From NCBI RefSeq assembly GCF_014396975.1, contig NZ_CP060719.1:1150001-1214000 (forward strand): a stretch of 64,000 nucleotides of DNA. Reading direction: 5' to 3'. The notes under the pieces were generated by a model, which was not told where the DNA came from, searched no databases, and worked only from the letters and a program-made list of their open reading frames with translations. Of this stretch, positions 17,901 to 32,934 are shown in pieces. Each line of letters starts with the position of its first letter. Position 1 is the stretch's first letter. Made by a program: the position numbers and the translations under genes. The DNA is from Thermomonas carbonis. GTDB taxonomy: Bacteria > Pseudomonadota > Gammaproteobacteria > Xanthomonadales > Xanthomonadaceae.

Positions 17901-18266
17901 CTTTCGCAAGGCGAAGCGATCGACGCATTGCGTAGCCTGATGACCTTGCGCCGCGACGGCTTGCAGCAACCGCTGCCGTTCGCGCCGTGCAGCGGCTGGG
18001 AGTTGTTCTCCGCGGAGGATTCCGAGCGCGGCATCCGCAACGCCGCCGCACGCTGGCGCGGTGGCGACCGGCAATGGGGTGAGGGCGACAGCGACGCGAT
18101 CCGGCTCGCCTTGCGCGGCCGCGATCCATTTGCCGATCCCGCTGCGCTGCGCGACTTCGCGCGCATCACCGGCATCGTGTTCGGCTCGGTCACGCGTGGC
18201 ATTCCGATGGCGATCGAACTCGGTGATGCCATGTTGCCGGATGACGATGCGGAGGACGCCGCATGA
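14928..18266 (+). CDS. recC: RecC, exodeoxyribonuclease V gamma subunit
   Basis: RecC is the scaffold and Chi-recognition subunit of RecBCD, which resects double-strand breaks and degrades linear foreign DNA. The 1112-residue length matches E. coli RecC. It opens with FRLYHGNALDVLAGLLA and has conserved blocks such as VAMRRWLQATLAARHGIAAN and RLLPFRAICLLGMNDGDFPR. It is the first gene of a recC-recB-recD operon; its stop overlaps the recB start as ATGA. No strong ribosome site precedes its ATG, and its promoter shares about 220 bases with the divergent mla operon. Confidence 0.97.
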   Translation: MSPAPDFRLYHGNALDVLAGLLAEELRSNVPDQSLLAPDTILIPQVAMRRWLQATLAARHGIAANLEFLTPGEFVARALDSNLGASKDDLDLDTLHWRLHAALSDPALRGKLAMAQLAAYLADADPLKSWSLAGELANVFNKYQAWRRDWLLRWDGGADPEDPQAILWRAVAAGRQHRARRIQDYLARFSDGDALPVGLPRRLFAFGTLNISPDVLRVLATQSRVGTLHFYLPTPTKHYWGDLQSLGARLREGVEPFGDEARENPLLRDWGAAGKDFMALLGSYEVVHPSGEIAAYADPAEGANDGLLQRMQADLFHRRVEPSGSKRDGVDAADASLQFHACHTRLRELQVLHDRLRALLEDNRFDPPLQPRDIAVLAPDIDPYVPYLDAVFGSDGHAGQAIPYALADASPLAGEQLADVFLRLLALPVSRFGLEEVLDLLASPPLAEAAGLDAADFERLHGWLHAAGARWGIDARHRERQGGPQDDAYTWQFALDRLLLGHASGSEDHIAGVAPWPELEGGALAALDALLKMLRTLARNERVLGEAMPPAQWRERLLGLLDALLPRPPSTTSGQRALDRLRTLVDDFAKQAHKAGFDAPLAAEIVRAHFTARLTEADIRAPLLTGGVSFARMVPMRLLPFRAICLLGMNDGDFPRRDSTAGLNRLTADLGTDRRRHGDRSTRDDDRYLFLQLFSAAQDVFYLSWLGADPRDGSAREPSALVSELLAAAGDYHAQPEKAVSALVLRHPLQPFSPAAFGADDARLFSYRGHWHPAAGRLSGSRESLAPWLETATLLASPLEAETDLSLDALRRFLQAPAEQFLRQRLGLRLPELEAAAEDIEPLQAAARGLDRMALQRAVFDRLLEGDAATAMQPALRARGLLPSGPLGARALAEVIKEVAPYAQAFAQWRSGDEPTSHALHVDIDGLRLHGRLGDVWPNGIARLRFGKPNGNSSIRNGLDWLLASAAGFDVPFVEVRDDVDAGIDAHVRAPLSQGEAIDALRSLMTLRRDGLQQPLPFAPCSGWELFSAEDSERGIRNAAARWRGGDRQWGEGDSDAIRLALRGRDPFADPAALRDFARITGIVFGSVTRGIPMAIELGDAMLPDDDAEDAA

Positions 18267-21200
18267 GCGACATCGCGCGCGATCCGTATCTCGATCTCCC
18301 GCTGGATGGCCTGCAGCTGATCGAAGCCAGCGCCGGTACCGGCAAGACCTTCACCCTGGCCACGCTGGTGACGCGCCTTGTCGTCGAGCGCGGCCTGCGT
18401 ATTGGCCAGATCCTTGCGGTGACCTTCACCGAGGCGGCCACGCAGGAGCTGCGCAAGCGCATCCGCGAACGCCTGCAACTCACGCTCGATTTGCTCGACG
18501 CGCCTGCAGCCGACGACGACAGCGCGGAAGCTTCGCTGACCCGGCAACTTCTGGATGCGCATCGCACGCGCAGTGAAGAGAGTGACGAATCACTGCGTCG
18601 CCGCTTGCGCCAGGCCACGCTGGAAACCGACCTCGCCGCGATCTTCACCATCCACGGTTTCTGTGCGCGCGTGCTGCGCGAACACGCAGTGGAAAGCGGG
18701 CAGGGCTTCGATGCCGCCACGCTCCTGACCAATGACCGCGACCTGCGCGCGGAACTCGCCGCCGACCTGTGGCGCGTGCATGCACAGGACAGCGCAGGCG
18801 CGGACGATTTGGCGATGTTGTGGTCGGGTGGCTTCGAGGATCTGGCCAAAGACCTGCCCGCATTACTGCGCGAACCGGTGCTGTTTCCGCCGCTGGCCGA
18901 TGCCGGGCTCGCCGCAAGCATCGATGCTCTGCAACGCGACGTGCTCCACGCACAAGTCGCGCTGCAGCAGGCGTGGAACGAGTACGGCGAAGACTTCCTG
19001 GATGCCCTCGCCGCTGCGATCGATGCCGACGTGATGCACCGCGGGCAATACAAGCAGACATGGCTGGCCAACCTGCGCCAGTGGCTGCAGGGCTTCGCCT
19101 GCGATCCGTGGCTGGCGGGCGCGCCGCATCCCAAGCTGGAAAAACTGACTGCGACCGCATTGGCGGCGGGCACCAAGAAAGGCAACGCGGACAGGACGCC
19201 CGTATCGGCGCATGTCAGCAACGCGGTGGCGTATTACCTGGATGCCTTGCTGGCACTGGATGGATTGCTCGCGCGCCGTCGCGGCAACCTGCTGCATCGC
19301 ATTCGCGACGATGCGCGCGCACGCCTGGCGCTACTCAAGCAACAGCGCCGCGTGCAGACCTACGACGACCTCATCGACGGCGTCGCCGATGCGCTGGCGC
19401 AGGACGATGCTGGCACGCTGGTGCGGCAACTGCGCACGCAATACGCGGTCGCTTTGGTCGACGAATTCCAGGACACCGACGCACGCCAGTGGGCGATCTT
19501 CAATCGCGTGTTCGGGAGCGATAATGATGCGCCCGCACTGTTTTTGATCGGTGATCCCAAGCAGGCGATCTACGGATTCCGCGGCGGCGACGTCCACACC
19601 TATCTTGCTGCGGCGAACATCGCCGAGCCTGCGCCGCCGCTGTCGCATAACTTCCGTTCGCGTCCTGCGCTGCTCCGCGCCGTTGCCGCGATGTACGACA
19701 ACGCTGGCGATGCGGCCTTCATCGATCCGCGCATCGGTTTCTTCGCGGTTGAAGCCGGCGGCAAGCGTCGCGACGACGGGTTCCTACGCAATGGCGAACC
19801 CGCACCCGCGCTGACGGTCTGGTGCGCACCCAAACCACCGGTCGACGACAAGGGCAAGCAGAAGCCGTGGAGCGCGAGCGAATCGCGCGAACTGGCGACC
19901 CATGCCTGCGTCGCGGCGATCCACGCCGTACTGTCGGAGGCGCGCGCCGGCAAGGCACTGATCGACGGCGAACCCGTGCAGCCCGGCGACATCGCCGTGC
20001 TGGTGCGCAGCCATCGCGAGGCCACGATGATCCAGCAGGCGCTGGCCTTGGTCGGCATCGCCGCGGTGGCGGCCGGCAAGCAGAGCCTGTTCGCCACCGC
20101 CGAAGCGCGCGACCTGCACGCGCTGCTGCTGGCCTTGTTGCACGGCGGCGATGACGGCCGCCTGCGCACCGCGCTGTCGACGGTGCTGGTCGGCGTGGAT
20201 GCGCTCGGCATCGACAACCTCGAGGCAGATGCTGACGCGCACCGCGTCTGGCAGCAACGCGCGATGGGTTGGCGCGAACGCCTGTTGCGCGGCGGCCCGC
20301 TCGCGTTGATCGGCGACCTCTGCGCGACGCATGCGGAACGCCTGCTCGGCCTGCTCGATGGCGAGCGACGCATGAGCAATTACCTGCAGCTCGCCGAACT
20401 ACTGCAGGAAGCGCAGGCCGGCGCGCTCGGGCTGCATGGCCTGGTCGACTGGCTGGGCCAGCGCATCGCCACCGCGGATTCCAACGACGAAACGCAACTG
20501 CTGCGGCTGGAGTCCGACGCGCGCCGCGTACAGATCGTCACCCTGCACAAAAGCAAGGGGCTGGAGTATCCGCTGGTGTTCCTGCCCTTCGTCGGCATCG
20601 GCGGCAAGCCGCCATCGCCCGGTCGCTGTTGCGTGGCGCATGACGCCGCCAGCGGCCAGCGTCGCCTGCACTGGGGTCTGGAGCTGCCGGAAGCGGAATG
20701 GAACACCGCCAGCGAGGCATGGAAGCACGAGCAACTGGCCGAGGATGCGCGCCTGCTCTACGTGGGCCTGACGCGCGCCGAGCACGCGCTGTGGATCGCC
20801 AGCGGAAATTTCTTCAACGCAGTGAAGACGCCGCTGGCGAAGATGCTGGGCGATGTCGATGCGTTGACCAACGCCGGCATCGTGTTCGATGCATCGCGCT
20901 CGCCCGATCAGCTGGCACGGTTGCCCGCCGAATCCGATGCCACGATCCCGCCCGCGCGCAGCGTCACGCGCCGGCTCTCGCACGACTGGTGGGTCTACAG
21001 CTTCAGCCAGTTGGCCAAGGCCGATGCCGGCATCGAGACCGCCAGTGCGTCCACCTTGCCCGCGAGCGGAGGCAACGACGAACCGGACGCCAGCGAAGAC
21101 GCGCCGGTCGACACCGACTTCGACGCACGCTTCGCCGGCAACCGCTACGGCGTGGCCCTGCACGCGGCGCTGGAACATGCGGACTTCGCGGCATGGCGCG

Positions 21201-21877
21201 ACTGGCGCGCGGGCGATGTTGCGCCGAACGACGAGGCCGACGTCATCGTCGACGCGCTCGGCAAGGAAGGCTATGGCGCCGACGTGCTGGAGGACGGCGT
21301 CGCGCTGACCACGCAGTTCGTCGGGCAGACGCTGACCGTCGCGCTGCCGGAAGGCGTTCGCCTGTGCGATGTGCCTGCCTTTGATCGCCGCGCGGAAATC
21401 GAATTCCAGTTCTCGCTGCGCACGACCCAGGTCGATGCGCTGCTGCAACTGCTGCACGCGCATGGCGTGGTGCGCGAGCGCAACGGCTTCGGCCTGCGCC
21501 AGCGGCTGGAAGGCCTGATGACCGGCCTGATCGACCTGACCTATCGCCATGCCGGCAAGTGGTACGTGCTCGACTACAAATCCAACCGCCTGCCCGCGTA
21601 TGACGCCCCCAACCTGCAGCGCGCCATGGCGCACAGCGAATACGACCTGCAGGCGCTGATCTACACGCTCGCCCTTCACCGCTGGCTGCGCTTCCGCCTG
21701 CGCGACGGCTACGACTACGCCCGCGATTTCGGCGGCATCCGCTACGTGTTCTGTCGCGGGCTGGATGCGGATCGAGACGACTCGCCCGGCATCCATGCGC
21801 AACGCTTCACCCCGGAACTCGTCGATGCGCTGGACGCGTTGTTCGGCGGCGGCGATGCCATCGGAGCCGCCGCATGA
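18263..21877 (+). CDS. recB: RecB, exodeoxyribonuclease V beta subunit
   Basis: RecB is the 3'-5' SF1 helicase and the nuclease of RecBCD. The 1204-residue protein has Walker A EASAGTGKTFTLATL near residue 25, the helicase motif VALVDEFQDTDARQW, the motif GDPKQAIYGFRGGDV, and VTLHKSKGLEYPLVFLP. The C-terminal nuclease domain retains LDYKSNRLPAY, the PD-(D/E)XK catalytic core. It is overlapped by ATGA junctions at both ends, consistent with coupled translation of the three subunits. Confidence 0.97.
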   Translation: MSDIARDPYLDLPLDGLQLIEASAGTGKTFTLATLVTRLVVERGLRIGQILAVTFTEAATQELRKRIRERLQLTLDLLDAPAADDDSAEASLTRQLLDAHRTRSEESDESLRRRLRQATLETDLAAIFTIHGFCARVLREHAVESGQGFDAATLLTNDRDLRAELAADLWRVHAQDSAGADDLAMLWSGGFEDLAKDLPALLREPVLFPPLADAGLAASIDALQRDVLHAQVALQQAWNEYGEDFLDALAAAIDADVMHRGQYKQTWLANLRQWLQGFACDPWLAGAPHPKLEKLTATALAAGTKKGNADRTPVSAHVSNAVAYYLDALLALDGLLARRRGNLLHRIRDDARARLALLKQQRRVQTYDDLIDGVADALAQDDAGTLVRQLRTQYAVALVDEFQDTDARQWAIFNRVFGSDNDAPALFLIGDPKQAIYGFRGGDVHTYLAAANIAEPAPPLSHNFRSRPALLRAVAAMYDNAGDAAFIDPRIGFFAVEAGGKRRDDGFLRNGEPAPALTVWCAPKPPVDDKGKQKPWSASESRELATHACVAAIHAVLSEARAGKALIDGEPVQPGDIAVLVRSHREATMIQQALALVGIAAVAAGKQSLFATAEARDLHALLLALLHGGDDGRLRTALSTVLVGVDALGIDNLEADADAHRVWQQRAMGWRERLLRGGPLALIGDLCATHAERLLGLLDGERRMSNYLQLAELLQEAQAGALGLHGLVDWLGQRIATADSNDETQLLRLESDARRVQIVTLHKSKGLEYPLVFLPFVGIGGKPPSPGRCCVAHDAASGQRRLHWGLELPEAEWNTASEAWKHEQLAEDARLLYVGLTRAEHALWIASGNFFNAVKTPLAKMLGDVDALTNAGIVFDASRSPDQLARLPAESDATIPPARSVTRRLSHDWWVYSFSQLAKADAGIETASASTLPASGGNDEPDASEDAPVDTDFDARFAGNRYGVALHAALEHADFAAWRDWRAGDVAPNDEADVIVDALGKEGYGADVLEDGVALTTQFVGQTLTVALPEGVRLCDVPAFDRRAEIEFQFSLRTTQVDALLQLLHAHGVVRERNGFGLRQRLEGLMTGLIDLTYRHAGKWYVLDYKSNRLPAYDAPNLQRAMAHSEYDLQALIYTLALHRWLRFRLRDGYDYARDFGGIRYVFCRGLDADRDDSPGIHAQRFTPELVDALDALFGGGDAIGAAA

Positions 21878-23700
21878 GCCTGCTGCGCGCCCTGCAACAG
21901 GCCGGCGTCTTGCGCACGCTGGACGATGCACTGGCCAACACCATGCGCCGCCTCGATCCGGACACGCCGGACGATGTGCTGGCCGCCGCCGCGTTGGCCT
22001 CGCTCGCTGTCGCGCAGGGACATGCCGGCTTCGATCCTGCATCGCCGCGGCAACTGGTCGATGCCGATATCGCCTGGCCCGATGCCGAGGCATGGCGGCA
22101 GCAACTCGCCGCATCGCGCTTCGTCGCCACGCCGGCATCGCCGATCGATGAAGCGCAGACCGCGCCGCTCGTCCTCGACAACGGCTTGTTGTATTTGCGC
22201 CGCTATCGCGAATACGAACGTCGGTTGGCGATGCAACTCCGGCGCATCGCATCGGCGCCGAATCCGGAGATCGGAATCGAACCGATCGCGCTGTTGTTCG
22301 CGACACTGTTCCCGGACGCACATAGCGGCGACCACCAGGCCCGCGCCGCCGCCCTCGCCCTGCGCCGCGCGTTGCTGCTGGTCACCGGCGGTCCCGGCAC
22401 CGGCAAGACCACCACGATTGCTCGATTGCTCACCCTGCGCGTTGCGCAGGCGAGCCGAGCCGGCACCACGCCGCCGCGGATCGCGCTGGCCGCGCCCACC
22501 GGCCGCGCCGCCGAACGCATGGCGGAAAGCCTGCGTCGCGCCGTCGCGCAGATGGCCGAACAGGGCATCGGCGCCGCCTTGCTCGAAGCGCTGCCCGCGC
22601 AGGCCAGCACCCTGCATCGCCTGCTCGGCACCGTTCCGGACTCGCCGCGCTTTCGCCACAACAAAGACAACCCGCTGCCGTTCGACATCGTGGTGGTCGA
22701 CGAAGCCTCGATGGTCGACTTGCCGCTGATGTGCAAGCTCACCGAAGCGGTGGCCGACGGCGCGCAACTGGTCTTGCTGGGCGACCCCGACCAGTTGCCC
22801 TCGGTCGAAGCCGGCGATGTGCTGGCCGCGATCCTCGGTGCCGCCGGTGCCGGCGATGCGTTGTCGATGGGCGATGCGGCCGCGTTGCATCCATTGCTCG
22901 GCGACGTGCCGGTCGATGCGGGTACGAACCACCTGGTGGGCCATCGCGTCCACCTCCAACACGGCTGGCGCCAAAGCGAAGCCTTGCACCTCGCGCCACT
23001 CGCCGAGGCCGTGCGCAACGGCGATGCCTTGGAAGCGCTCTCGTTGCTGCGCGGCGGCACGCTCTCCAATGTGCATTTCCACGAAGGCGTGGACGATCCG
23101 CTGCAGGCGCGGCCGGATCTGCTCGCGCACTTCCGCACGCTGGCCACGCACACCGATCCCGCGCAGGCGCTGCGGCAGGGCAATCGGCTGCGCCTGCTCA
23201 CCGCGCTGCGCGAAGGCCCGTCAGGCGCGCGCGGCCTCAACGCCCGCATCGAAGTCGCACTCTCCGGCCGCCGCATCGGCACCCCGCCCGCGTGGTTCCC
23301 CGGCCGCCTGCTGCTGATCACCGAGAACAGCTATCGCCACGGCCTGTTCAACGGCGACGTCGGCATCTGCCTGGCCGATGCCGACGGCACGCCGCTGGCC
23401 TGGTTCTCGGGCGAAGGCAGCGACCACGTGCGCGCCTTCCATCCCGCCGCGTTGCCCGCGCACGAATCCGCCTTCGCCATGACCGTGCACAAGGCGCAGG
23501 GCAGCGAGTTCGACGAAGTGTGGTTGCAGCTGCCGCGCGCCGACAGCCGCGTGCTCAGCCGCGAGCTGCTCTACACCGGCCTGACCCGCGCGCGTTCCGC
23601 ATTGCATGTCGCAGGAACTGCGGATGTGATCGCCGCCGCGCTGGCGCGCCATGCGGGGCGGGTGTCGGGGTTGGGCTGGCGGTTGGGCGCTACGGAATGA
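21874..23700 (+). CDS. recD: RecD, exodeoxyribonuclease V alpha subunit
   Basis: RecD is the 5'-3' SF1B helicase of RecBCD. The 608 residues equal E. coli RecD in length. Walker A GGPGTGKTTTIARLL, Walker B VVVDEASMVDLPLM, GDPDQLPSVEAGDVLA and the C-terminal TVHKAQGSEFDEVWLQLP with LLYTGLTRARSAL are all present. The start overlaps recB as ATGA. It converges with hipA, leaving 18 bases between stop codons and no obvious terminator hairpin. Confidence 0.97.
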   Translation: MSLLRALQQAGVLRTLDDALANTMRRLDPDTPDDVLAAAALASLAVAQGHAGFDPASPRQLVDADIAWPDAEAWRQQLAASRFVATPASPIDEAQTAPLVLDNGLLYLRRYREYERRLAMQLRRIASAPNPEIGIEPIALLFATLFPDAHSGDHQARAAALALRRALLLVTGGPGTGKTTTIARLLTLRVAQASRAGTTPPRIALAAPTGRAAERMAESLRRAVAQMAEQGIGAALLEALPAQASTLHRLLGTVPDSPRFRHNKDNPLPFDIVVVDEASMVDLPLMCKLTEAVADGAQLVLLGDPDQLPSVEAGDVLAAILGAAGAGDALSMGDAAALHPLLGDVPVDAGTNHLVGHRVHLQHGWRQSEALHLAPLAEAVRNGDALEALSLLRGGTLSNVHFHEGVDDPLQARPDLLAHFRTLATHTDPAQALRQGNRLRLLTALREGPSGARGLNARIEVALSGRRIGTPPAWFPGRLLLITENSYRHGLFNGDVGICLADADGTPLAWFSGEGSDHVRAFHPAALPAHESAFAMTVHKAQGSEFDEVWLQLPRADSRVLSRELLYTGLTRARSALHVAGTADVIAAALARHAGRVSGLGWRLGATE

Positions 23701-23718
23701 CGATGATCCCGTGATGGT

Positions 23719-25041
23719 TCACGCCTCGGGTTGCATCGCCGCCAGCCGGTCCGCAGCCTGCCTGAGGCCATCGAAGATCGACGTCGCCACGTGGTCGGGA
23801 TAGCCGGGAGGCAACCGCGCTTGCACCTCCGCGATTGCCGGCTCGACGCGGTCCAACAGTTCGATGATCCAGGGCTCGGCACCGTCGGTGATCCCGCAGG
23901 CACGCGCGGTGGCGTTCCAGTGCCGTCGGCGGATCTCGGTGATACGGCGGTGGCGATTCTTGCCCGCCACCGACATCGCCAGCGCTGCGTCGTGAGGGTC
24001 CAGCTGGCCGGGACCGCGGCCGAGGATCGGATACACCGACAGGACATCGTAGATGGGCGTCATGCGGAACCGGCCGCCCTGTTCGATGTGCACGCTGAAG
24101 TTCTTCGCGTGCCCGTCGGTGGCGGCCAGCATCCAGAACAGGAGTTGGGTCCTGAAGAAGGTGGCGCGGTCCTGCGGTTCCAGGGATTGGCGCAACAGAT
24201 CCATGATCTGCACGATGCCGGGACCGCCATCGGCTTCGTACTTGCGCGAAGGCGGCAGGCCGAAGACCTGGCACATGTCCTCCTGCGGCAAGCGCATCCA
24301 CCACGTGCCATCGCGCGCCAGCCTGCGGTCGAAACGCTCCACGATCAGCACGCGTTGCCCGTCGAACGACTCCATCGCCGTGCTCGCAACGGGAATCCCG
24401 AATGCGTCCAGCAGCTGCATGCACAGCCATTCGTTCTCGGCCGAGAGTTCCATGTCGGCGCGCATGTTGCCCACCAGCCCCAACGGAAGCTTGAAGATGT
24501 GGGTGCTCGGTGTGCTGCCGATCGGCAGGCACCACTGTCCGTCATGGCGAAGCAGCCCGGTCTTTTCCTGCGCACCCGCAATCGAGATGCGGAATTCCCC
24601 GTCGTCGCCCGCCGCCTGGCCGGGCAGTGGACGTGCGGTGACGCGCCGAAGCACATCGGCGACCTGGCCCTCGCTCAAGGGTGTGGATCGAATCTCGTGG
24701 AGGTCATCCGGTGCCCGCTCGTCCGGCAACAACTGCACCGCCCCCACGCAATCGCGACCGATTTCCCGCAGCAGTTCGAAGGTGCCGGCCGAGCGCAGGC
24801 GGAAACGGTCGCGGATGCGGTTGCGGATCTCCGCGTTGTCCGGCAGCAGGTTGTCGAAGTAGTCGGAGACCACATGGCCGCGGTGGTCTTCGCCGGAAGG
24901 CAGCAGCGGCAGCGAAAGGGACAGTGGCCGGGCGCGCGGCGAAGCCAGCCACGCGGGCAGGTAGCTCAACCGTGAACCCGACGCGGCCTGTTGCCAGGAA
25001 GCGACGGCTTCACCGTTCATCCAGACGTGCAGCTCGGCCAT
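23719..25041 (-). CDS. hipA: HipA-family serine/threonine kinase toxin
   Basis: HipA toxins phosphorylate glutamyl-tRNA synthetase in E. coli and drive growth arrest and persistence. The 440-residue protein has the N-terminal subdomain (residues 1-110), the ATP/Ser loop SIAGAQEKTGLL, the catalytic loop ATDGHAKNFSV carrying the catalytic Asp and Lys-Asn pair, and the metal-binding Asp of PIYDVLSVYP. All key residues look intact, so the kinase is predicted active. It starts four bases after the hipB stop. This matters because hipB is frameshifted in the sequence as given. Confidence 0.94.
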   Translation of the reverse strand: MAELHVWMNGEAVASWQQAASGSRLSYLPAWLASPRARPLSLSLPLLPSGEDHRGHVVSDYFDNLLPDNAEIRNRIRDRFRLRSAGTFELLREIGRDCVGAVQLLPDERAPDDLHEIRSTPLSEGQVADVLRRVTARPLPGQAAGDDGEFRISIAGAQEKTGLLRHDGQWCLPIGSTPSTHIFKLPLGLVGNMRADMELSAENEWLCMQLLDAFGIPVASTAMESFDGQRVLIVERFDRRLARDGTWWMRLPQEDMCQVFGLPPSRKYEADGGPGIVQIMDLLRQSLEPQDRATFFRTQLLFWMLAATDGHAKNFSVHIEQGGRFRMTPIYDVLSVYPILGRGPGQLDPHDAALAMSVAGKNRHRRITEIRRRHWNATARACGITDGAEPWIIELLDRVEPAIAEVQARLPPGYPDHVATSIFDGLRQAADRLAAMQPEA

Positions 25042-25045
25042 GGCC

Positions 25046-25296
25046 TCACCACTCCGTCGGGTCTGTGGGGACGGCGCGCGCGCGCAGGGACACTTCCAAT
25101 CCGAGCACGGCCCAGACCTTCATCAGTCGCTCGAACGTGGCCGTCTCCGGGCGGCTTTCCAGCGTGGTGACGGCCTGGCGGGTGATGCCCAGCTGCCGGG
25201 CAAGGTCGGCCTGCGTCAGCCCGCGCTGTTTGCGCAGGGCGCGCAGCAAGGGGCCAGCTGCCCTGGCGTATGGATCGTGTAGGCGTTCGTATCCAT
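25046..25296 (-). pseudogene. hipB: HipB-type XRE antitoxin, frameshifted after codon 16
   Basis: This is an XRE helix-turn-helix antitoxin that should bind HipA and repress the operon. The proposed start at 25296 reads MDTNAYTIHTPGQLAP, the usual HipB N-terminus. The homologous continuation LLRALRKQRGLTQADLARQL is in another frame. The C-run at 25253-25250 appears one base short, and one added C joins the two parts into an 83-residue protein. The helix-turn-helix (LTQADLARQLGITRQAVTTLE) is intact. The alternative is a longer frame from 25432, but its N-terminal 40 residues are basic, Cys-rich and unlike any HipB. Either a sequencing error or a true antitoxin loss; the first is more likely beside an intact toxin. 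Confidence 0.75.
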
Positions 25297-25324
25297 GGCA
25301 CCCGCGAGATGTGTCGGAGTGCTG

Positions 25325-25382
25325 GCAATTTATACATTGCCTTTTGCAAATGCAATCTTTAGCTTTCCTTTCGGAAATGCAA
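25325..25382 (-). promoter_or_regulatory. hipBA promoter with inverted-repeat operator array
   Basis: Upstream of hipB lie three short inverted repeats: GCAAT/ATTGC (25325-25340), TTGC/GCAA (25337-25349) and TTTCC/GGAAA (25364-25377). A minus-strand -10-like TATAAA (25334-25329) overlaps the first repeat, and TTGCAT (25355-25350) lies 15 bases further upstream as a weak -35. The stretch is strikingly AT-rich for this genome. Binding by HipB would occlude the promoter, as in E. coli hipBA; this is inferred from layout. Confidence 0.5.
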
Positions 25383-25487
25383 TTGATCGGTTGCTTCTGG
25401 TCGGCTTTCCGACGGCTGGGCCCGCGCGCCATGCCGGTGGTGTCGGGGTTGGGGTGGTGATCGGGACTGTCGGGCGTAGCGCATGCC

Positions 25488-25602
25488 GTTATGGGAGGGG
25501 CTTCATGAAAGGCCAGGCGCTCGATCCCGTGGGACAGGCTTCAGCACGAGTCCGCGAAAGGCGTGGTGCTCGCTCCTGTGGGAGGGGCTTCAGCCCCGAC
25601 TG
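25488..25602. repeat. Three REP-like repeats in tandem
   Basis: Three copies of a REP-like unit begin with GGGAGGGGCTT or GGGACAGGCTT at about 25493, 25531 and 25580. The third is the best preserved and folds back on itself (GGGGCTTCAGCCCC at 25584-25597). The first two are partly degenerate. Such REP elements are common between genes in Pseudomonas and xanthomonads. No RAYT transposase is nearby. With the hip operator region, this is all that is recognisable in the 440-base gap between hipB and the Excalibur gene. Confidence 0.6.
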
Positions 25603-25737
25603 TGCGAAATCGGATCGCGATGGAAACGCACCCGCGATGCCAGTCCAGCAACGCCGCTCATCCCGTGTGAACTATTACCACCCCGCCACGTGAAGCCACT
25701 GGGGCAGAATCGGGCGAAGCATCGGAGTGAGGACTCC

Positions 25738-26103
25738 ATGAAATTCACGAGCTTCATTGCACTGGTCGCCATCGGCGCGATCGGGCTGGTCGGCATCGAC
25801 CGCTACCAGGCGCACGTTGCGAAGGTCGAGGCGATTCCTGTCGCGGCACCGAAACGGCGCGTGCCACCACCCGAACCGGTGGCGATGCCGGTGGAGGATC
25901 GGTCCTGGATCAAGCCACGGGATAACGCACCGATTGCCGCGAGCGCGGCTCCCGCGCCATCCGCGCCATCTCGATGCGATGGGCGTACGCACTGCTCGCA
26001 GATGCGCTCATGCGAGGAAGCGACGTACTTCATCCAGCACTGCCCGAATACGCAGATGGATGGGGATAACGATGGGGTGCCTTGTGAGAGGCAGTGGTGT
26101 TAG
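25738..26103 (+). CDS. Excalibur calcium-binding domain protein
   Basis: This is a 121-residue protein with an N-terminal membrane anchor or uncleaved signal (residues 4-20) and a Pro/Ala-rich linker (about 35-78). A C-terminal Excalibur domain (80-121) has four or more cysteines and the Ca2+-loop motif DGDNDGVPCE. Such domains sit outside the inner membrane and are often joined to nucleases, but no nuclease domain is present here. The start at 25738 has GAG-rich sequence upstream. It lies between the REP-like repeats and the OLD gene. The domain call is firm; function is unknown. Confidence 0.82.
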   Translation: MKFTSFIALVAIGAIGLVGIDRYQAHVAKVEAIPVAAPKRRVPPPEPVAMPVEDRSWIKPRDNAPIAASAAPAPSAPSRCDGRTHCSQMRSCEEATYFIQHCPNTQMDGDNDGVPCERQWC

Positions 26104-26237
26104 ATGCTCAAGGGCCAGCGCTGGATAAGCCGACTCCACCCAATTTCTATGTCTTCGATCACGTAGATCCGCGCTGCGCTTCGTTAATCGGGCGACGCGG
26201 GCTGAATGAAGGCAACTGACTTCGTGAGAGGTAAGCA

Positions 26238-28091
26238 ATGAAACTGCGCCGCTTTGAGATTCGCAACTTCAAATGCATCGAGTATGTGAACCTCAACTGG
26301 GAAGACCTGCTAGTCATAATTGGCGAGAACAATGCAGGAAAGTCATCCGTTTTGTCAGCCCTCGCGCTGTTTCTCAGTGGAAGCGCTGCCAAAGACGCTT
26401 CACTATTTCGAAGGCACCAGATAAATGCCGATAACGCGATCGAACTGATCGGACATTTCTCCGGCATCGGTACCGAAGAGGCAGACCAGATCGCCATCCG
26501 AGGTCGCATGGATGGCGACAAATGGATACTGAAGAAGCGTTTCTGGTACGAACCGGGTGAAGATGGTGAGTCCGGTGGATGGAAAGAGCAGCTCTATTCG
26601 TTTTCAAGCACTGAAACCTTCGTTGGTTGGCCCGATTCGGATTCAGCCTGGACGTCATTTCCGGATGAGTACCAGGGGCTAATCGCGGCCCTTCCCAATC
26701 GTAGCGTCCGGCCCAACGCAGTATCCAAGGAAGCGCTGAGGACTGCCTTGCGAGATCAGCGTCCACATCTGGTCGACGTGGGGGCCGCAAATTGGGTTGC
26801 GAACCCTGGAGGCGGGGGCAACTGGAAGAGCAACGCAAACTCGATTCTTCCTCGAGCAATCTTCGTGAGAGCTGTTCATGAGGCCAGTGATGAGACGAAT
26901 GCAAAAGATGCATCGACCTACGGGAAGCTCGTCAACCTGATCGTTGAGCGCAGTCTGGCGCAACGGCCTGAAATGGCGAGGTTGCGAGAAGCCTTGGACG
27001 AAGTCCTAGCGTTGTTCCGGCCTGATGAAGCTAACCCCCTACGTCAAGCGCAAGAAGTCAGAGATCTTCAAGAAAAGATCAACCAGAGCCTCAATGAGGT
27101 TATTGGCGGACACGCGTTGATCCGAACAGAGCCGCCGGAGTTGCGAGCGATGGTGCTCCCATCGACGTCTCTGGTGATCCGCGATGTTGTGGCTGGCATT
27201 GAAACTGATGTTGGGGATCAAGGTCATGGTCTGCAGCGTACGCTGGTCATGACATTGCTACAGCTATTGGCTGATGCCCAAGGCCAAGCGAATTTTGGAA
27301 TGACCCCAGGATTCCAAAGATCCACAATTCTGCTTTTGGAAGAGCCGGAACTTTACCTTCACCCGCAAATGGAACGCCTTATGCGGGATGTTCTGCATAA
27401 GCTGGCATCCCAGCCGGGCACTCAGGTGGTTTGCTGTACCCACTCACCGTTGTTTCTAGATACTGCGAATAGCTATCGGGCGATAGTCCGGATATTCAAG
27501 ACTGCGACTGGTGATGCCACATCTCATCAAGTGACGCAGGACTTGTTTCCAGGGTCGACTCATCAGGCTGACAAGCAACGACTCAATGCTGTAGCGAAGT
27601 TTGATCCAGCAGTGAACGAACTCTTCTTCGCGAAAAGCGTGGTGCTGATGGAGGAGTTCAGTGCGATCGCTGCGTTCGATCGTGCTGCCGAGGTTCTAGG
27701 CTTTTTTGAGCGACATCGGAGACTACGGCGGGAGTTGACACTAATAGACTGCAATGGAAAGTCAAATATCCCAGCCTTCCTTCGCGTCCTAAATGCTTTC
27801 AATATTCCCTACAGAGTCCTCCACGACGCTGACCCCGGAAATGTTTCTGAGCAGGCCACTAACCAGAAAATACTTGCGGCGCTCCCCAACGGCGCTGCTC
27901 AGCTTCATCTGGTGGATCCGAACTTGGAAGGCCTGCTCGGCTATGTACCACCGAGTAAGGCCAAGCCATACGCAGCAGTGTCTGCAGTGGATAGCCTCCA
28001 CTCTCAAGGACAACTACCTCAAGCTTTCTGTGAGGCAGTGTGCATGGTCTATTTCGGACAGCCGACAGAGCCGGCTGTTAGTACTCCATAG
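26238..28091 (+). CDS. OLD-family ATP-dependent endonuclease-like protein (AAA ATPase + TOPRIM)
   Basis: This is a 617-residue protein of the OLD (overcoming lysogenization defect) family. An SMC/RecF-like ATPase carries Walker A GENNAGKSS (residues 29-37), ABC-type Walker B LLLEEPELYLHP (near 365) and the switch CCTHSPLFLD. The C-terminal TOPRIM-like region starts near 465 with VVLMEEFSAIAAF, then IDCNGKSNIPAFLRVL and HDADPGN. The first TOPRIM motif is non-canonical: the Gly and second acidic residue of the usual EGxxE are replaced, while the later DxD is kept. AGAGG precedes the ATG. GC content is visibly lower than in flanking genes, suggesting transfer. Many OLD proteins are anti-phage nucleases; here that is inference. 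Confidence 0.88.
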   Translation: MKLRRFEIRNFKCIEYVNLNWEDLLVIIGENNAGKSSVLSALALFLSGSAAKDASLFRRHQINADNAIELIGHFSGIGTEEADQIAIRGRMDGDKWILKKRFWYEPGEDGESGGWKEQLYSFSSTETFVGWPDSDSAWTSFPDEYQGLIAALPNRSVRPNAVSKEALRTALRDQRPHLVDVGAANWVANPGGGGNWKSNANSILPRAIFVRAVHEASDETNAKDASTYGKLVNLIVERSLAQRPEMARLREALDEVLALFRPDEANPLRQAQEVRDLQEKINQSLNEVIGGHALIRTEPPELRAMVLPSTSLVIRDVVAGIETDVGDQGHGLQRTLVMTLLQLLADAQGQANFGMTPGFQRSTILLLEEPELYLHPQMERLMRDVLHKLASQPGTQVVCCTHSPLFLDTANSYRAIVRIFKTATGDATSHQVTQDLFPGSTHQADKQRLNAVAKFDPAVNELFFAKSVVLMEEFSAIAAFDRAAEVLGFFERHRRLRRELTLIDCNGKSNIPAFLRVLNAFNIPYRVLHDADPGNVSEQATNQKILAALPNGAAQLHLVDPNLEGLLGYVPPSKAKPYAAVSAVDSLHSQGQLPQAFCEAVCMVYFGQPTEPAVSTP

Positions 28092-28283
28092 AAATGGAAA
28101 CGGTACTAATAAAAAGTCGGAGATGCCTCATCACTTTGTCGACCAATTTTTCGCCACGCCGCTTATAGCTGGAAGCAACGAAGGCATTGCGCAGTGTAAA
28201 TTTGTCGATGAGGCCGGCGGCACGTCACGAAAAATGCAGTTCGCAAGTATGTGGTTAGTTTAGTCATTAGGAAGATAGACAAA

Positions 28284-30413
28284 ATGGCGACCGAGCTACC
28301 AGTAATTGGATCAGACCAACCTCTCCAGCCATCGGACGCTATCGACCACGACAAACTGCAGAGGAAGGGATTCGCAAAATCTGCAGTTGCCGCACTGAAG
28401 CGAGTGTCATCGGCGGCTGGATTTGTCCTGTCGATAGAGGGGCCGTGGGGGAGCGGCAAGACATCGATTCTCTCCATGATGGAGCAACTAATCCGCATGG
28501 ATGACAGCGAAGGAACTGTCATAGTTCATTTCAATCCATGGCTAGTTGGTGAGCGTGATCCTCTCCTTCGTCAGTTTCTGAATTCCATTGCGACAGCCAT
28601 CAAGATCAAAGACAACGCTGAAGTTGCGAAGAAGGCTTCTAAGGAGCTCATCAACTACGCAGATGTTCTCGACTTTGTGAAATGGGTGCCAGGCGCGGAA
28701 CCTTGGGCATCAATCGTCAAAGGTGTTTTGAAATCGGCAGGCAAAGCGACTGGTGGAGTCGCCGATCAAAAATCGAGGGATATAGAGGGTCAAAAGGAGA
28801 GGCTTGAGAAGGCGCTGGAAGAACTTGATAAAAAAATCTACGTGTTCATCGACGATGTAGATCGCTTGTTTCCCGCCGAAGTTTTCGAAATGGTGAGAAT
28901 AATAAAAGCTGTTGGGCACTTACCGAATGTAGGATATGTAGTAGCGTGGGATCCAGAATATGTTCGACGCGCGCTGAAGGCGGCCGCCGTTCCGCAGGCG
29001 GTCAACTACATCGACAAGATTGTTCAAGTGCGCCTTCCCGTGCCAGCCATCTCTGCGCATGCGCGCCTGCAACTATTGAATGAAGGGATCGCTTCCCTTT
29101 CTGTTGAAGCTACTGCAAACCGTTTCGCGAAGCAGGACGAGCGCCTTCAATCTCTTTACTTCCAGGGATTGCGCGATCTCCTCGAGCAGCCAAGAGATGT
29201 AACGCGCGTCATGAACACTGTGAGCGTAATTGAGCCGGGACTTCGGGGCGAGGTGGTATTCGCAGATATTTTAGGATTGTCGTGCTTAATGGTTCGTGCT
29301 CCACGTGTTTACGACGCACTGCGGAGAAATCCGGAGTTGTTTACTTCTGGCATGTCTTCTTACGACGAGAATAAAAAGAAGCATCAAGAAGAGCATCGAG
29401 ATAAAATGGATCGACTTTTCGCAAAGACACCAAACCCAGTCGCGGTTCAGAAGCTGGTTCATCACCTCTTTCCTGCTGCAGCTAAAGCGAGCGGTCATTT
29501 CGCGTTTGGAAACGCAGTCGACGTGGAAGGTCACTTAGCAGCACCGAGTCGTCTCAACATCGCAATGAGCATGGCGATTGGCGTCACAGACGTGAGTCTG
29601 GTCGACGCAAGGCATTACATCCTTGAGCCTCTCAAGCGCGCGCAAATTGAAACGACTCTAACTTCTGACAATTGTCTTGGATTCTTAGACATGCTGGGCG
29701 ATGTCGCGAAGACGATATCAAAAGGAGAGATCGCCGATTTGGAGCGTCTTTGCATAGCAATCGGGCGCTTGATAGATAGAGAGCCGATTTCAAGTTCCAA
29801 GAATCGGCGAGGCTTCTTTACGATCTCCGCAGAAAACTTGGCCAGAACGGCAATTGAAAATCTAACAGCGTCGAATCAGACCCACAGTGCACCTCATATT
29901 GCCCATACGATCGCTATTGATCCAGATGCTTTGACGCTAGCCGCCGACATTATTAGTGACGGCGCAGCTCCAAAACGGAACAATGGTTCTATGATGTGTG
30001 TTTCATCCAAGCAAGATGCGGCGTCAAGAAAGCTGGCTTCTAACACTATAAGTGCGGTCGAAGGAGGCACATTCTGGTCTGTGTGCAACCCGTCTCGTGT
30101 TCTTTGGACGATCATGCGAACGGCACCCAATGCCGCAAAGAGAGTTTTCGCTGCAATCAAGCGCGAAGACCAAAATTTAGACAGGTTTGCATTGAGTTTT
30201 CTAAAACACTCATTCAGTTCAGATGGCGGGCAAAGTTACGGCCTCCCTGACGATCCCGCGGTCAAGAACATGGTTGATCCGCGCGTGCTCTTAACCCACG
30301 CAAAGCGCCGTCTAAAAGACGAAAAGTTGGACTATCCAGCTCGTGCGGCATGGAGATCGGTTGTTGAGAAGAAGCCGCTATATGGATTCGACGGATCTGA
30401 TGCAGGATCTTAA
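28284..30413 (+). CDS. KAP family P-loop NTPase
   Basis: This 709-residue protein has the KAP NTPase hallmarks: Walker A GPWGSGKTS (53-61), the family motif FNPW (83-86), and Walker B VFIDDVDRL (about 187-195). A mildly hydrophobic stretch (125-160) falls where KAP proteins often insert membrane segments. The C-terminal 400 residues match no domain I recognise. The start at 28284 has AGGAAG nine bases upstream; a GTG at 28251 is possible but less likely. It lies 192 bases after the OLD gene on the same strand with the same low GC, so both probably entered together. The KAP protein PifA of F plasmid excludes phage T7, so defence is plausible. Confidence 0.88.
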   Translation: MATELPVIGSDQPLQPSDAIDHDKLQRKGFAKSAVAALKRVSSAAGFVLSIEGPWGSGKTSILSMMEQLIRMDDSEGTVIVHFNPWLVGERDPLLRQFLNSIATAIKIKDNAEVAKKASKELINYADVLDFVKWVPGAEPWASIVKGVLKSAGKATGGVADQKSRDIEGQKERLEKALEELDKKIYVFIDDVDRLFPAEVFEMVRIIKAVGHLPNVGYVVAWDPEYVRRALKAAAVPQAVNYIDKIVQVRLPVPAISAHARLQLLNEGIASLSVEATANRFAKQDERLQSLYFQGLRDLLEQPRDVTRVMNTVSVIEPGLRGEVVFADILGLSCLMVRAPRVYDALRRNPELFTSGMSSYDENKKKHQEEHRDKMDRLFAKTPNPVAVQKLVHHLFPAAAKASGHFAFGNAVDVEGHLAAPSRLNIAMSMAIGVTDVSLVDARHYILEPLKRAQIETTLTSDNCLGFLDMLGDVAKTISKGEIADLERLCIAIGRLIDREPISSSKNRRGFFTISAENLARTAIENLTASNQTHSAPHIAHTIAIDPDALTLAADIISDGAAPKRNNGSMMCVSSKQDAASRKLASNTISAVEGGTFWSVCNPSRVLWTIMRTAPNAAKRVFAAIKREDQNLDRFALSFLKHSFSSDGGQSYGLPDDPAVKNMVDPRVLLTHAKRRLKDEKLDYPARAAWRSVVEKKPLYGFDGSDAGS

Positions 30414-30617
30414 GCGCAAGCGCCAAAGAATTCGGGTCGGAGTGGACTTCTTTAAGCCCTGACGCCGCGCCGACGCTTTCGCCAAGATGGCGTCTCTGAA
30501 ACCAAGGCGTCCGCATCAGTACGCGCCACTGCATCGCCACTGGCCCACGTCATCGTCAGGAAATGTCCTCTCACCCCTTTTCAGCGATGATGGCTCCGTC
30601 TACCACTGGGCCTGTAC

Positions 30618-32039
30618 GTGACCGAAGACTCGATGGCCGCAAGCGCTGCCGGTTGGCCGCGCTGGACTAAGGGACTTGCCCTGGCCATCGCCTGGGTGGG
30701 CCTCTGGGGGCTCGGCCACATCGGCGAGTTCGCCACCCATGCGAGTCTCTGGTACCCGCCCGCGGCACTGACCTTCGCGAGCCTCGCGGTGCTCGGTCCG
30801 CGCGTGATTCCCTACCTGGTGCTGGCCAGCTTCGGCGGCACGCTGTGGTCGCTGTCGATCTACCAGGTCGACATGCACTGGACCCGCGTGGTGGCGTTCG
30901 GCCTGGCCAATGCGATCGCCCACATCGGCTGCTACGCGCTCGGCGCCTTCGTGCTCCGGCGTTTCGCGCGGCAACCGGGCCATCGCCTGCCGAACCAGAT
31001 CATCGCGTTCCTGCTCATCGCCACGCTGTCTTCGGCACTGGCCACCATCGGCGTGGTCACCACCCTGGCCGCCTTCGACCAGCTCGGTCCTGAAGGACCA
31101 TGGACGACGGCATTGGTGTTCTGGATCGGCGATTTCGCCGCGCTCGTTGTGCTGGGGCCTTTGTTCGCCGCAGTGCTCCTGCGCCTGCTTCGCCATAACG
31201 AGCTGTGGGCGCAAGCGCATGCCGTGCTGCGCGGCGGGCGCCTGCGCGACGCGTTCGGCTACAAGCTGCTCTTCAACGTCGTGCTGGTGATCGCGGTCAT
31301 GCTGATCGCCGATCGCGTCCCGAGTTACGAAAGCGCGTTCCTGATCTTCTTCGTGCTGATCCCGCAGCTGTGGCTGACGTACACGGAATCGCCGATGGCG
31401 ACCACGGTCAGCCTGGCGGTGGTCAGCTTCCTGGTGGTCGTGCTGCTCTGGCTGCTGGAACTCACGCAGTTCGTCTACGTTTACCAGCTGGCGATCGCGA
31501 TCATCGCGACGACCGCCTATTTCGGGCTGGCGATCCCCTTGCTCGAGGCCGCCAATCGCCAGCTGCGCCAGCGCCTGATGTTCGATCCGCTGACCGGCGC
31601 CGCATCGCGCGAGTACCTGCTCGAGAAGATCGAACGCGCGGAGCGGGTGGAGAGTGAATCGGCGAGCGCCCTCGCCATCGTCGATATCGACCGGTTCAAG
31701 GCGATCAACGACACCCATGGCCATCGACTGGGCGACCAGGCCTTGATCGCGGTGGCGGAAACGCTGCGCGCGCATGTGCGCGGGGGCGATGTCGTTGCGC
31801 GCTTCGGCGGCGACGAATTCATGATCATGTTGCCGGGCTGCGATCACGACCGCGCAAGCCGACGCATGCAGGCGGCCTTGCGCGCGCTGCGCGATGTGCG
31901 CGTCGGCGACGACGTGCGCCTGACCGCCAGCGTCGGCATCGCCATCCGCGGCCCGGACGAAAGCTTCGATCGCTGGTTCGCGCGCGCCGACGAGGCGCTG
32001 TATCGGGCGAAGCAGGCGGGGCGGGATCGGGTGGTGTGA
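30618..32039 (+). CDS. MASE1-type membrane sensor diguanylate cyclase
   Basis: It is predicted to make cyclic di-GMP. About eight membrane segments resembling MASE1 fill residues 15-315, with LWYPPAALTFASL near the start. The GGDEF domain follows: FDPLTGAASREYLLEKI, active-site GGDEF near residue 396, and an RxxD inhibitory site (RGGD) exactly five residues before it, so product feedback is expected. The start used is GTG at 30618; ATG at 30633 is equally possible and neither has a good ribosome site. It begins the high-GC sequence that returns after the OLD/KAP cassette. Confidence 0.9.
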   Translation: MTEDSMAASAAGWPRWTKGLALAIAWVGLWGLGHIGEFATHASLWYPPAALTFASLAVLGPRVIPYLVLASFGGTLWSLSIYQVDMHWTRVVAFGLANAIAHIGCYALGAFVLRRFARQPGHRLPNQIIAFLLIATLSSALATIGVVTTLAAFDQLGPEGPWTTALVFWIGDFAALVVLGPLFAAVLLRLLRHNELWAQAHAVLRGGRLRDAFGYKLLFNVVLVIAVMLIADRVPSYESAFLIFFVLIPQLWLTYTESPMATTVSLAVVSFLVVVLLWLLELTQFVYVYQLAIAIIATTAYFGLAIPLLEAANRQLRQRLMFDPLTGAASREYLLEKIERAERVESESASALAIVDIDRFKAINDTHGHRLGDQALIAVAETLRAHVRGGDVVARFGGDEFMIMLPGCDHDRASRRMQAALRALRDVRVGDDVRLTASVGIAIRGPDESFDRWFARADEALYRAKQAGRDRVV

Positions 32040-32046
32040 GCTCTTT

Positions 32047-32934
32047 TCAGACGCGCGCCACGATCCACTCCACCATCGCATCGAACCGCTCCTGATCCAG
32101 CGCATGCCCGCGCTCGACGCGCAGCGTGGTGATGAAGTCGCCTGCAACCCTGGCCACGACCGCATCCGCATCCCGCGAATACTTGTCCTGCGTGCCCGAC
32201 ACCACCATCGCCGGCCGCGGGCCGATGGCCGCCAGCAGGTCATGGTGGCCGAGTTGGCGCGCAAGCCCGGGCACGGTCTCGAACAGCAGGATCCCGGTGC
32301 CTTCGCGCAGGCGCGCCTCGAAGCTGCAGACCGCGCCACTGATGCAGGCGAACGTGCATCGCGCATCGATGGCGGCGTGGTAAAGCGCGGTGGTGCCGCC
32401 GTACGAATGACCCGCCACGCCCACGCGGCGCGCATCGATCCCGGTGGTCTGCAGCAGCACGCTCAGCGCGCGCTGCGCGTCGTCCAGGCACTTGCGCATC
32501 AGCAGGTCGCCCTGCAGCAACCGGTAGCTCATGGCGTTGTAGTGCTGCAGCCAGTCGTACATGTCCGGCTCGGTGCCCTGCACCGCGGCGCGGCGGTCCT
32601 CGAAGCTGATCGCATCCGGTGCCAGCACCGCCAGACCCCTGCGCGCGAGCGCCGGGCCGAAGGCCTGGAACGCATCGCCCGTGATCCCCGCAACCTCGCT
32701 CTTGCCGAAGTGGAATTCGCCGTTGTGCTGGTGGAAGACGACCACGCCGCCGCGCGCCGCGTGCCCGCTCGGCGTGAACAGGAAGGCAGGAATGACGTCG
32801 TCTTCGAGTCCGCGGTACTCGATGCGTTCGCGATCGAAGCCCTCGAACGATTCGACCTCGCCTCGCTGGACATCGACCTGCACCGGTTCGGCAAGCCCGA
32901 GGCGTTCCCGAAGGCGCGTGGCGATGTCATCCAT
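32047..32934 (-). CDS. Alpha/beta hydrolase, dienelactone hydrolase-like
   Basis: This is a 295-residue cytosolic serine hydrolase without a signal peptide. The core sheet is recognisable: GGVVVFHQHNGEFHFGKSE supplies the oxyanion strand, GVAGHSYGGTTALYH carries the nucleophile Ser, and ERGHALDQERF near the C-terminus supplies the likely catalytic His. The start at 32934 gives MDDIATRLRERL. The frame remains open far upstream, but that part is antisense to other genes and has no domain. It converges on the diguanylate cyclase with seven bases between stops. Substrate unknown. Confidence 0.87.
   Translation of the reverse strand: MDDIATRLRERLGLAEPVQVDVQRGEVESFEGFDRERIEYRGLEDDVIPAFLFTPSGHAARGGVVVFHQHNGEFHFGKSEVAGITGDAFQAFGPALARRGLAVLAPDAISFEDRRAAVQGTEPDMYDWLQHYNAMSYRLLQGDLLMRKCLDDAQRALSVLLQTTGIDARRVGVAGHSYGGTTALYHAAIDARCTFACISGAVCSFEARLREGTGILLFETVPGLARQLGHHDLLAAIGPRPAMVVSGTQDKYSRDADAVVARVAGDFITTLRVERGHALDQERFDAMVEWIVARV

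Follow-up and report, generated by a model that had tools for sequence, protein, structure and literature searches.

Do two adjacent genes of Thermomonas carbonis, both poor in guanine plus cytosine (GC), form one anti-phage system, or do they only share a place in the chromosome? The question arises in a stretch of 64,000 nucleotides of contig NZ_CP060719.1 (positions 1,150,001 to 1,214,000), which is called the window here and to which all coordinates refer. The first gene encodes a protein of the OLD family, the second a KAP P-loop NTPase. An earlier note had proposed that the two constitute an undescribed defence system in which the KAP protein could be the sensor and the OLD protein the effector. 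We conclude with fair confidence that they are instead two independent single-gene anti-phage modules of known types that were captured as neighbours in a defence hotspot immediately 3' to recCBD; a two-gene system is not supported. The analysis shows both domain architectures, intact ATPase motifs, a foreign base composition, turnover of the cargo at this site and relatives of each gene that lack the other. Thus, the candidate new system gives way to a testable picture of two solitary defence genes in a recCBD-linked hotspot, in which most interest attaches to two features of OLD, its position beside recBCD and a changed metal-B site.

Two genes of foreign composition downstream of recCBD

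26238-28091, + strand: OLD-family gene, 617 amino acids (aa), ABC ATPase with a C-terminal TOPRIM region
28284-30413, + strand: KAP P-loop NTPase gene, 709 aa from ATG, or 720 aa from GTG at 28251
28123-28263, + strand: open reading frame (ORF) of 46 aa in the gap between the OLD and KAP genes

The two large ORFs noted earlier are present on the same strand (26238-28091 and 28251-30413); for the KAP gene, the ATG at 28284 looks likelier as start than the GTG at 28251. The 46-aa ORF has no convincing homologue in the fetched relative loci and is probably not a gene. GC content was 53.2% for the OLD gene (55% at third codon positions), 50.3% for the KAP gene (50% at third positions) and 51.4% for the pair together, which agrees with the low GC observed earlier by eye. 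Stretches of 4176 bases elsewhere in the window had a mean of 67.1% with a standard deviation of 1.16 and a minimum of 63.9%; the low GC of the pair is therefore not due to chance. Among 24 same-genus genomes, KAP was found in none at 1e-3 and OLD gave weak matches only, in four of them, with a best E of 3.6e-5. Both genes look horizontally acquired. Both match PADLOC profiles of defence families (Old 1.7e-72; PifA 3e-69), in line with the earlier note, and a defence role of each gene is likely.

The gene block sits directly 3' of the recC-recB-recD operon (14928-23700), a position not mentioned earlier.

14928-18266, + strand: recC
18263-21877, + strand: recB
21874-23700, + strand: recD
23688-32050, no strand: variable interval from recD to the esterase-like gene, with hipA, hipB, Excalibur, OLD, KAP and GGDEF genes
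32053-32934, - strand: conserved esterase-like gene, right border of the hotspot, of dienelactone-hydrolase type by its homologue in locus L086

The recD regions of six same-genus genomes (L085-L090) were compared with the window. In every one of them, DNA similarity breaks off at 23687/23688; in two, it is found again from 32051/32052 on, in the esterase-like gene. The interval 23688-32050 is therefore variable. The six sister species carry different cargo after recD, which is defence-like in three: a DUF3800 protein (PDC-M04A 5.5e-39), a reverse transcriptase of 561 aa (L086:15149-16834, genome G010; PADLOC RT-TIR_XII 6.5e-129) and DarT with DarG (L090:15438-17257, G012; 2.1e-72 and 7.1e-124). 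The RT-TIR_XII profile covers most of the length of the reverse transcriptase, in which Pfam finds RVT_1 alone, leaving the effector part without assignment; DarTG occupies the slot that hipBA, OLD and KAP fill in the window. Proteins encoded after recD in three of the sister species (L087:3177-3917, L088:4051-4635 and L089:3024-4376) matched no Pfam or PADLOC family and are, by position only, candidate undescribed defence genes.

OLD also follows recD in a second genus. Pseudoxanthomonas helianthi (L040, of which L053 appears to be a duplicate) carries an OLD gene 85% identical to that of the window 1.3 kb downstream of recD, followed by genes for a type II restriction enzyme (1.2e-57) and for a D12 methyltransferase (5.4e-71); a KAP profile search of the flanks found no KAP gene. 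In other genera, AT-rich ORFs follow recD at a distance of a few kb (L131:3647-5317, L105:3071-4771, L130:5083-6230). They are possible further cargo, and the start of the L131 ORF resembles, by eye, a RecF/SMC-type ATPase.

The location of OLD shortly after recCBD, found in two genera, could itself be functional, with OLD acting as a guard of RecBCD and a stand-alone OLD protein of Class 1, the class of P2 Old, being sufficient for defence. Three sources bear on this idea: P2 Old possibly senses RecBCD inhibition (BASEL paper, PMC8594841), P2 old+ lysogens kill recB and recC mutants (PMC7049728), and, as proposed in a 2025 preprint, phages are sensitised to Gabija by those of their proteins that antagonise RecBCD (PMC12407980). 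We consider such a role doubtful, yet worth testing; a mere hotspot also explains the position of OLD because the DarTG and reverse transcriptase cargo share the site. If the guard role holds, their shared location would keep guard and guarded complex together, and this stand-alone chromosomal OLD, its metal-B site rearranged, would supply the missing case of a Class 1 OLD protein from bacteria that suffices for defence.

Roles outside defence, with OLD in DNA repair beside RecBCD and KAP in some cellular role, would likewise suit the position next to recCBD and the RecF/RecN/Rad50-like similarity of the OLD ATPase. We regard them as unlikely: the genes are sporadic, foreign in composition and without close homologue in the 24 same-genus genomes, the cargo of sister species at the site includes DarTG and a defence-type reverse transcriptase, and defence genes neighbour OLD in five of the nine loci described below.

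Linkage of the OLD and KAP genes

An OLD alignment of 16 sequences (A1) and a KAP profile of 18 sequences (A2) were used for the comparison of loci. A scan of a species-genome collection with A1, which relied on two peptide patterns only and is no census, yielded nine loci with OLD relatives 48-85% identical to the window protein. The KAP family was found by A2 in none of these nine loci, with flanks of up to 8 kb that were shorter where contigs end (on one side in L037, L039, L042 and L044). Likewise, the KAP protein was found at 1e-10 in none of the nine genomes, in a search that held no positive control; in other searches it recovers itself in the window's own genome (G000). Six OLD relatives gave a long DNA alignment; in these, similarity sets in at 26238-26250 and in no case extends beyond 28073, so that OLD seems to move alone.

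Other defence genes were present in the flanks of five of the nine OLD loci, namely type III restriction-modification genes in L036, PDC-S37/Hhe-like genes in L038 and L041, the type II restriction-modification genes of L040/L053, and, directly adjoining OLD in Comamonas testosteroni (L043:9952-12294), an nSTAND3 NTPase with an Mrr-type nuclease domain (PDC-S73).

The KAP side gave a corresponding result. The nearest KAP relatives in genomes were found in G351 (49%), G293 (44%) and G683 (35%), and the close OLD family stands beside none of these three loci. A1 retrieved nothing at 1e-10 from the two genomes G351 and G293 in a search that also held no positive control; in G351, about 10 kb from KAP, there is a gene with a score of 38.7 bits to A1. 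Among 348 genomes of the order, searched at E ≤ 1e-60, KAP was present in three and OLD in two, and both together only in the window's own genome. Among 274 genomes of the class, searched at E ≤ 1e-40, KAP was present in three, of which two are distant, and OLD was confined to the window's own genome. In 369 genomes of the family, which overlap the earlier samples, KAP was detected at 1e-100 in G351 and G683. A search of 72,556 plasmid records gave no KAP match at E ≤ 1e-50.

That OLD and KAP nevertheless form one system, with KAP as sensor and OLD as nuclease effector, is very unlikely. The genes are adjacent, on the same strand and similarly low in GC, distant relatives of both are divergent neighbours in G046, and multi-gene OLD systems are known, Gabija and retrons according to a review (PMC10568477). 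However, KAP is missing from all nine OLD loci and genomes, and the close OLD family from the three nearest KAP loci and from two of their genomes; the OLD family is also well conserved, with 75% mean column identity in the 16-sequence alignment, even though none of the nine loci contains KAP. The recurrent adjacency on which the earlier proposal depended was thus not found, and, within these small samples, the division into sensor and effector is unsupported because relatives of each gene lack the other. In the literature, an OLD and KAP pair acting as one system was not found among the matches listed, which do not cover subscription papers and do not establish absence from print.

Several points weigh against two independent modules in a hotspot. 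The samples are small, with nine OLD loci and three near KAP loci, of which two (G293 and G683) lie at contig ends. Both whole-genome negatives, for KAP in nine genomes and for OLD in two, come without a positive control in the same search, and the flanks of L037, L039, L042 and L044 stood outside the PADLOC scan. Among five more distant KAP loci that were fetched (L054-L058), L054 alone has an OLD-type gene beside KAP: a distant OLD gene (124 bits to A1) and a distant KAP gene (46 bits to A2) are divergent neighbours at L054:7488-11695 (G046). In the window, both genes lie on one strand 192 bases apart, co-transcription is possible, and a promoter and terminator scan did not separate OLD from KAP. 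Furthermore, 40 additional recD 3' regions across the family hold no OLD or KAP at 1e-5; evidence for the hotspot is therefore limited to this genus and P. helianthi. Finally, the Class 1 metal-B ligand D381 has no counterpart in this OLD family.

The OLD protein and its active site

Pfam assigned AAA_15 (1.4e-36) and OLD-like_TOPRIM (4.2e-9, residues 463-532) to the OLD protein, in accordance with the ATPase and TOPRIM-like region recognized earlier. Among the PADLOC profiles, Old was followed by AriA (1e-40) and GajA (1.7e-29). The ATPase motifs comprise a Walker A (G29-E-N-N-A-G-K-S36), a Walker B (L-E368-E369-P) and H402; the TOPRIM residues are E472, D530-x-D532 and E564. The best solved match of the A1 profile was the OLD protein of Thermus scotoductus (Ts OLD, 6p74; 8.3e-37), with GajA at best at 1.1e-6. 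An AlphaFold model of moderate quality (predicted local distance difference test, pLDDT, 69.7; predicted template modelling score, pTM, 0.56) retrieved 6p74 first with Foldseek (8.2e-22) and GajA as a close second (1.7e-17). P2 Old aligned with residues 1-534 by hhalign (8.8e-22).

In Ts OLD, metal A is bound by E377/D431/D433 and metal B by D381/S478/E480, as described in PMC7049728. We compared these positions in 120 listed homologues of 58% identity or more, which take in the window's own protein. The metal-A set E472, D530 and D532, corresponding to E377, D431 and D433, is present in all 120, as is E564, corresponding to E480; E473 and S475 are invariant as well. In place of D381, A476 was found in 118 and T in two. 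At residue 562, the position of S478, 106 homologues have D and 12 have N, among them the window's own protein with N562. The metal-B acid may have shifted to position 562 or to E473; the window protein with its N562 would then lack one form of it. Loss of function of either gene here is highly unlikely: N562 and the orphan 46-aa ORF would fit such decay, but both ORFs are full-length, the examined Walker and metal-A residues are intact, and N at 562 recurs among the listed homologues, one of the 12 being the window's own protein.

The protein resembles Class 1 OLD proteins (P2 Old and Ts OLD) in being encoded by a single gene, in combining an ABC ATPase with Walker motifs and a C-terminal TOPRIM region, and in matching all metal-A residues. 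It differs in that the metal-B set is only partly matched, E480 being kept and D381 replaced by A476; it also exceeds Ts OLD in length by about 90 residues and has the additional invariant E473. Class 1 proteins are on average about 50 aa shorter than those of Class 2, and this shortness is not seen in the 617-aa protein; GajA chains among the listed structure matches have 575-598 residues, and one has 675. Its gene is flanked by KAP (3') and Excalibur (5'), and recB ends 4.4 kb upstream, within recCBD. Class 1 OLD genes do not occur near other candidate defence genes, according to the review (PMC10568477), whereas defence genes flank five of the nine loci of the OLD relatives. This OLD subfamily is a good candidate for the question of stand-alone Class 1 OLD defence.

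Gabija shares an OLD-type ATPase/TOPRIM protein, GajA, but the gene after OLD encodes a KAP protein, not the UvrD-like helicase GajB, and the match to GajA is weaker than that to 6p74 (1.1e-6 vs 8.3e-37). With respect to PARIS, the AriA profile spans only the ATPase part (residues 1-406); the TOPRIM region is part of the same protein, and the neighbour is KAP, not an AriB-type TOPRIM partner. By analogy with P2 Old and Ts OLD, we infer that the protein would be a stand-alone nuclease of this type, whose ATPase lobe would gate a metal-dependent TOPRIM DNase and which would attack DNA once its ends are exposed or altered in the course of phage infection. One OLD homologue of 928 aa (P0136) also carries PF09983, which we take to be a JetD-type domain; it is a fusion or a gene-prediction artefact.

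The KAP protein and the neighbouring genes

The KAP protein matched KAP_NTPase (2e-42) at residues 38-329 and no Pfam family beyond, which bears out the C-terminal part described earlier as impossible to assign. It contains a Walker A (G53-P-W-G-S-G-K-T60) and a Walker B (V-F-I-D-D-V-D-R). Its C-terminal half is conserved and mostly helical, has no assigned type and is a second target of interest. Homologues among the 120 matches listed were 45-69% identical; the window's own KAP protein is absent from this table, the best rows being at 68-69%, while its OLD neighbour was listed at 100%.

The best stretch of the PifA match in PADLOC comprised residues 21-392. With PifA of F-type plasmids, the protein shares the KAP NTPase module, aligned at residues 26-346 by hhalign (4.5e-23) and at residues 27-344 by BLASTP (28% identity); the C-terminal halves do not align by sequence, and directly upstream lies OLD, not a pifC-type gene. 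In contrast to RdrA of RADAR, the neighbours are OLD and GGDEF and no RdrB deaminase; the model is moderate (pLDDT 72.5, pTM 0.47), and the common AAA+ fold says nothing on function. QatABCD differs in the score of the QatA model (50.3 bits vs 600 needed) and in the immediate neighbours, which are OLD and GGDEF, not QatB, the QueC-like QatC or the TatD-like QatD. As a stand-alone PifA-type NTPase, the protein could be an AAA+/STAND-like switch that senses an infection product and acts through its own C-terminal helical half as effector or sensor; it would probably work by abortive infection.

The remaining features of the variable interval are as follows.

23719-25041, - strand: hipA-like gene (HipA_C 3e-53)
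25046-25432, - strand: hipB-like helix-turn-helix gene (HTH_3 8.7e-11)
25414-25465, + strand: incomplete repeat of the end of recD (its last bases, about 53, 23635-23687), beyond hipBA
25738-26103, + strand: small Excalibur-domain protein (3.4e-11, scanned from the longer ORF 25483-26103)
30618-32039, + strand: GGDEF protein gene with a weak MASE1 match

The hipBA and Excalibur neighbours named earlier were thus recovered, with a helix-turn-helix protein in the place of hipB, and the repeats described as REP-like correspond to two copies, 76% alike, of a 33-nucleotide repeat at 25473 and 25560. The GGDEF gene has normal GC though it lies within the variable interval; its protein had no match at E ≤ 1e-60 across the 24 same-genus genomes. 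The copy of the recD end reached a local score of 28, the next best elsewhere in the window being 23, and may be what an insertion at the 3' end of recD left behind. By eye, one stretch of this copy is closer to the recD ends of sister species than to the window's own recD.

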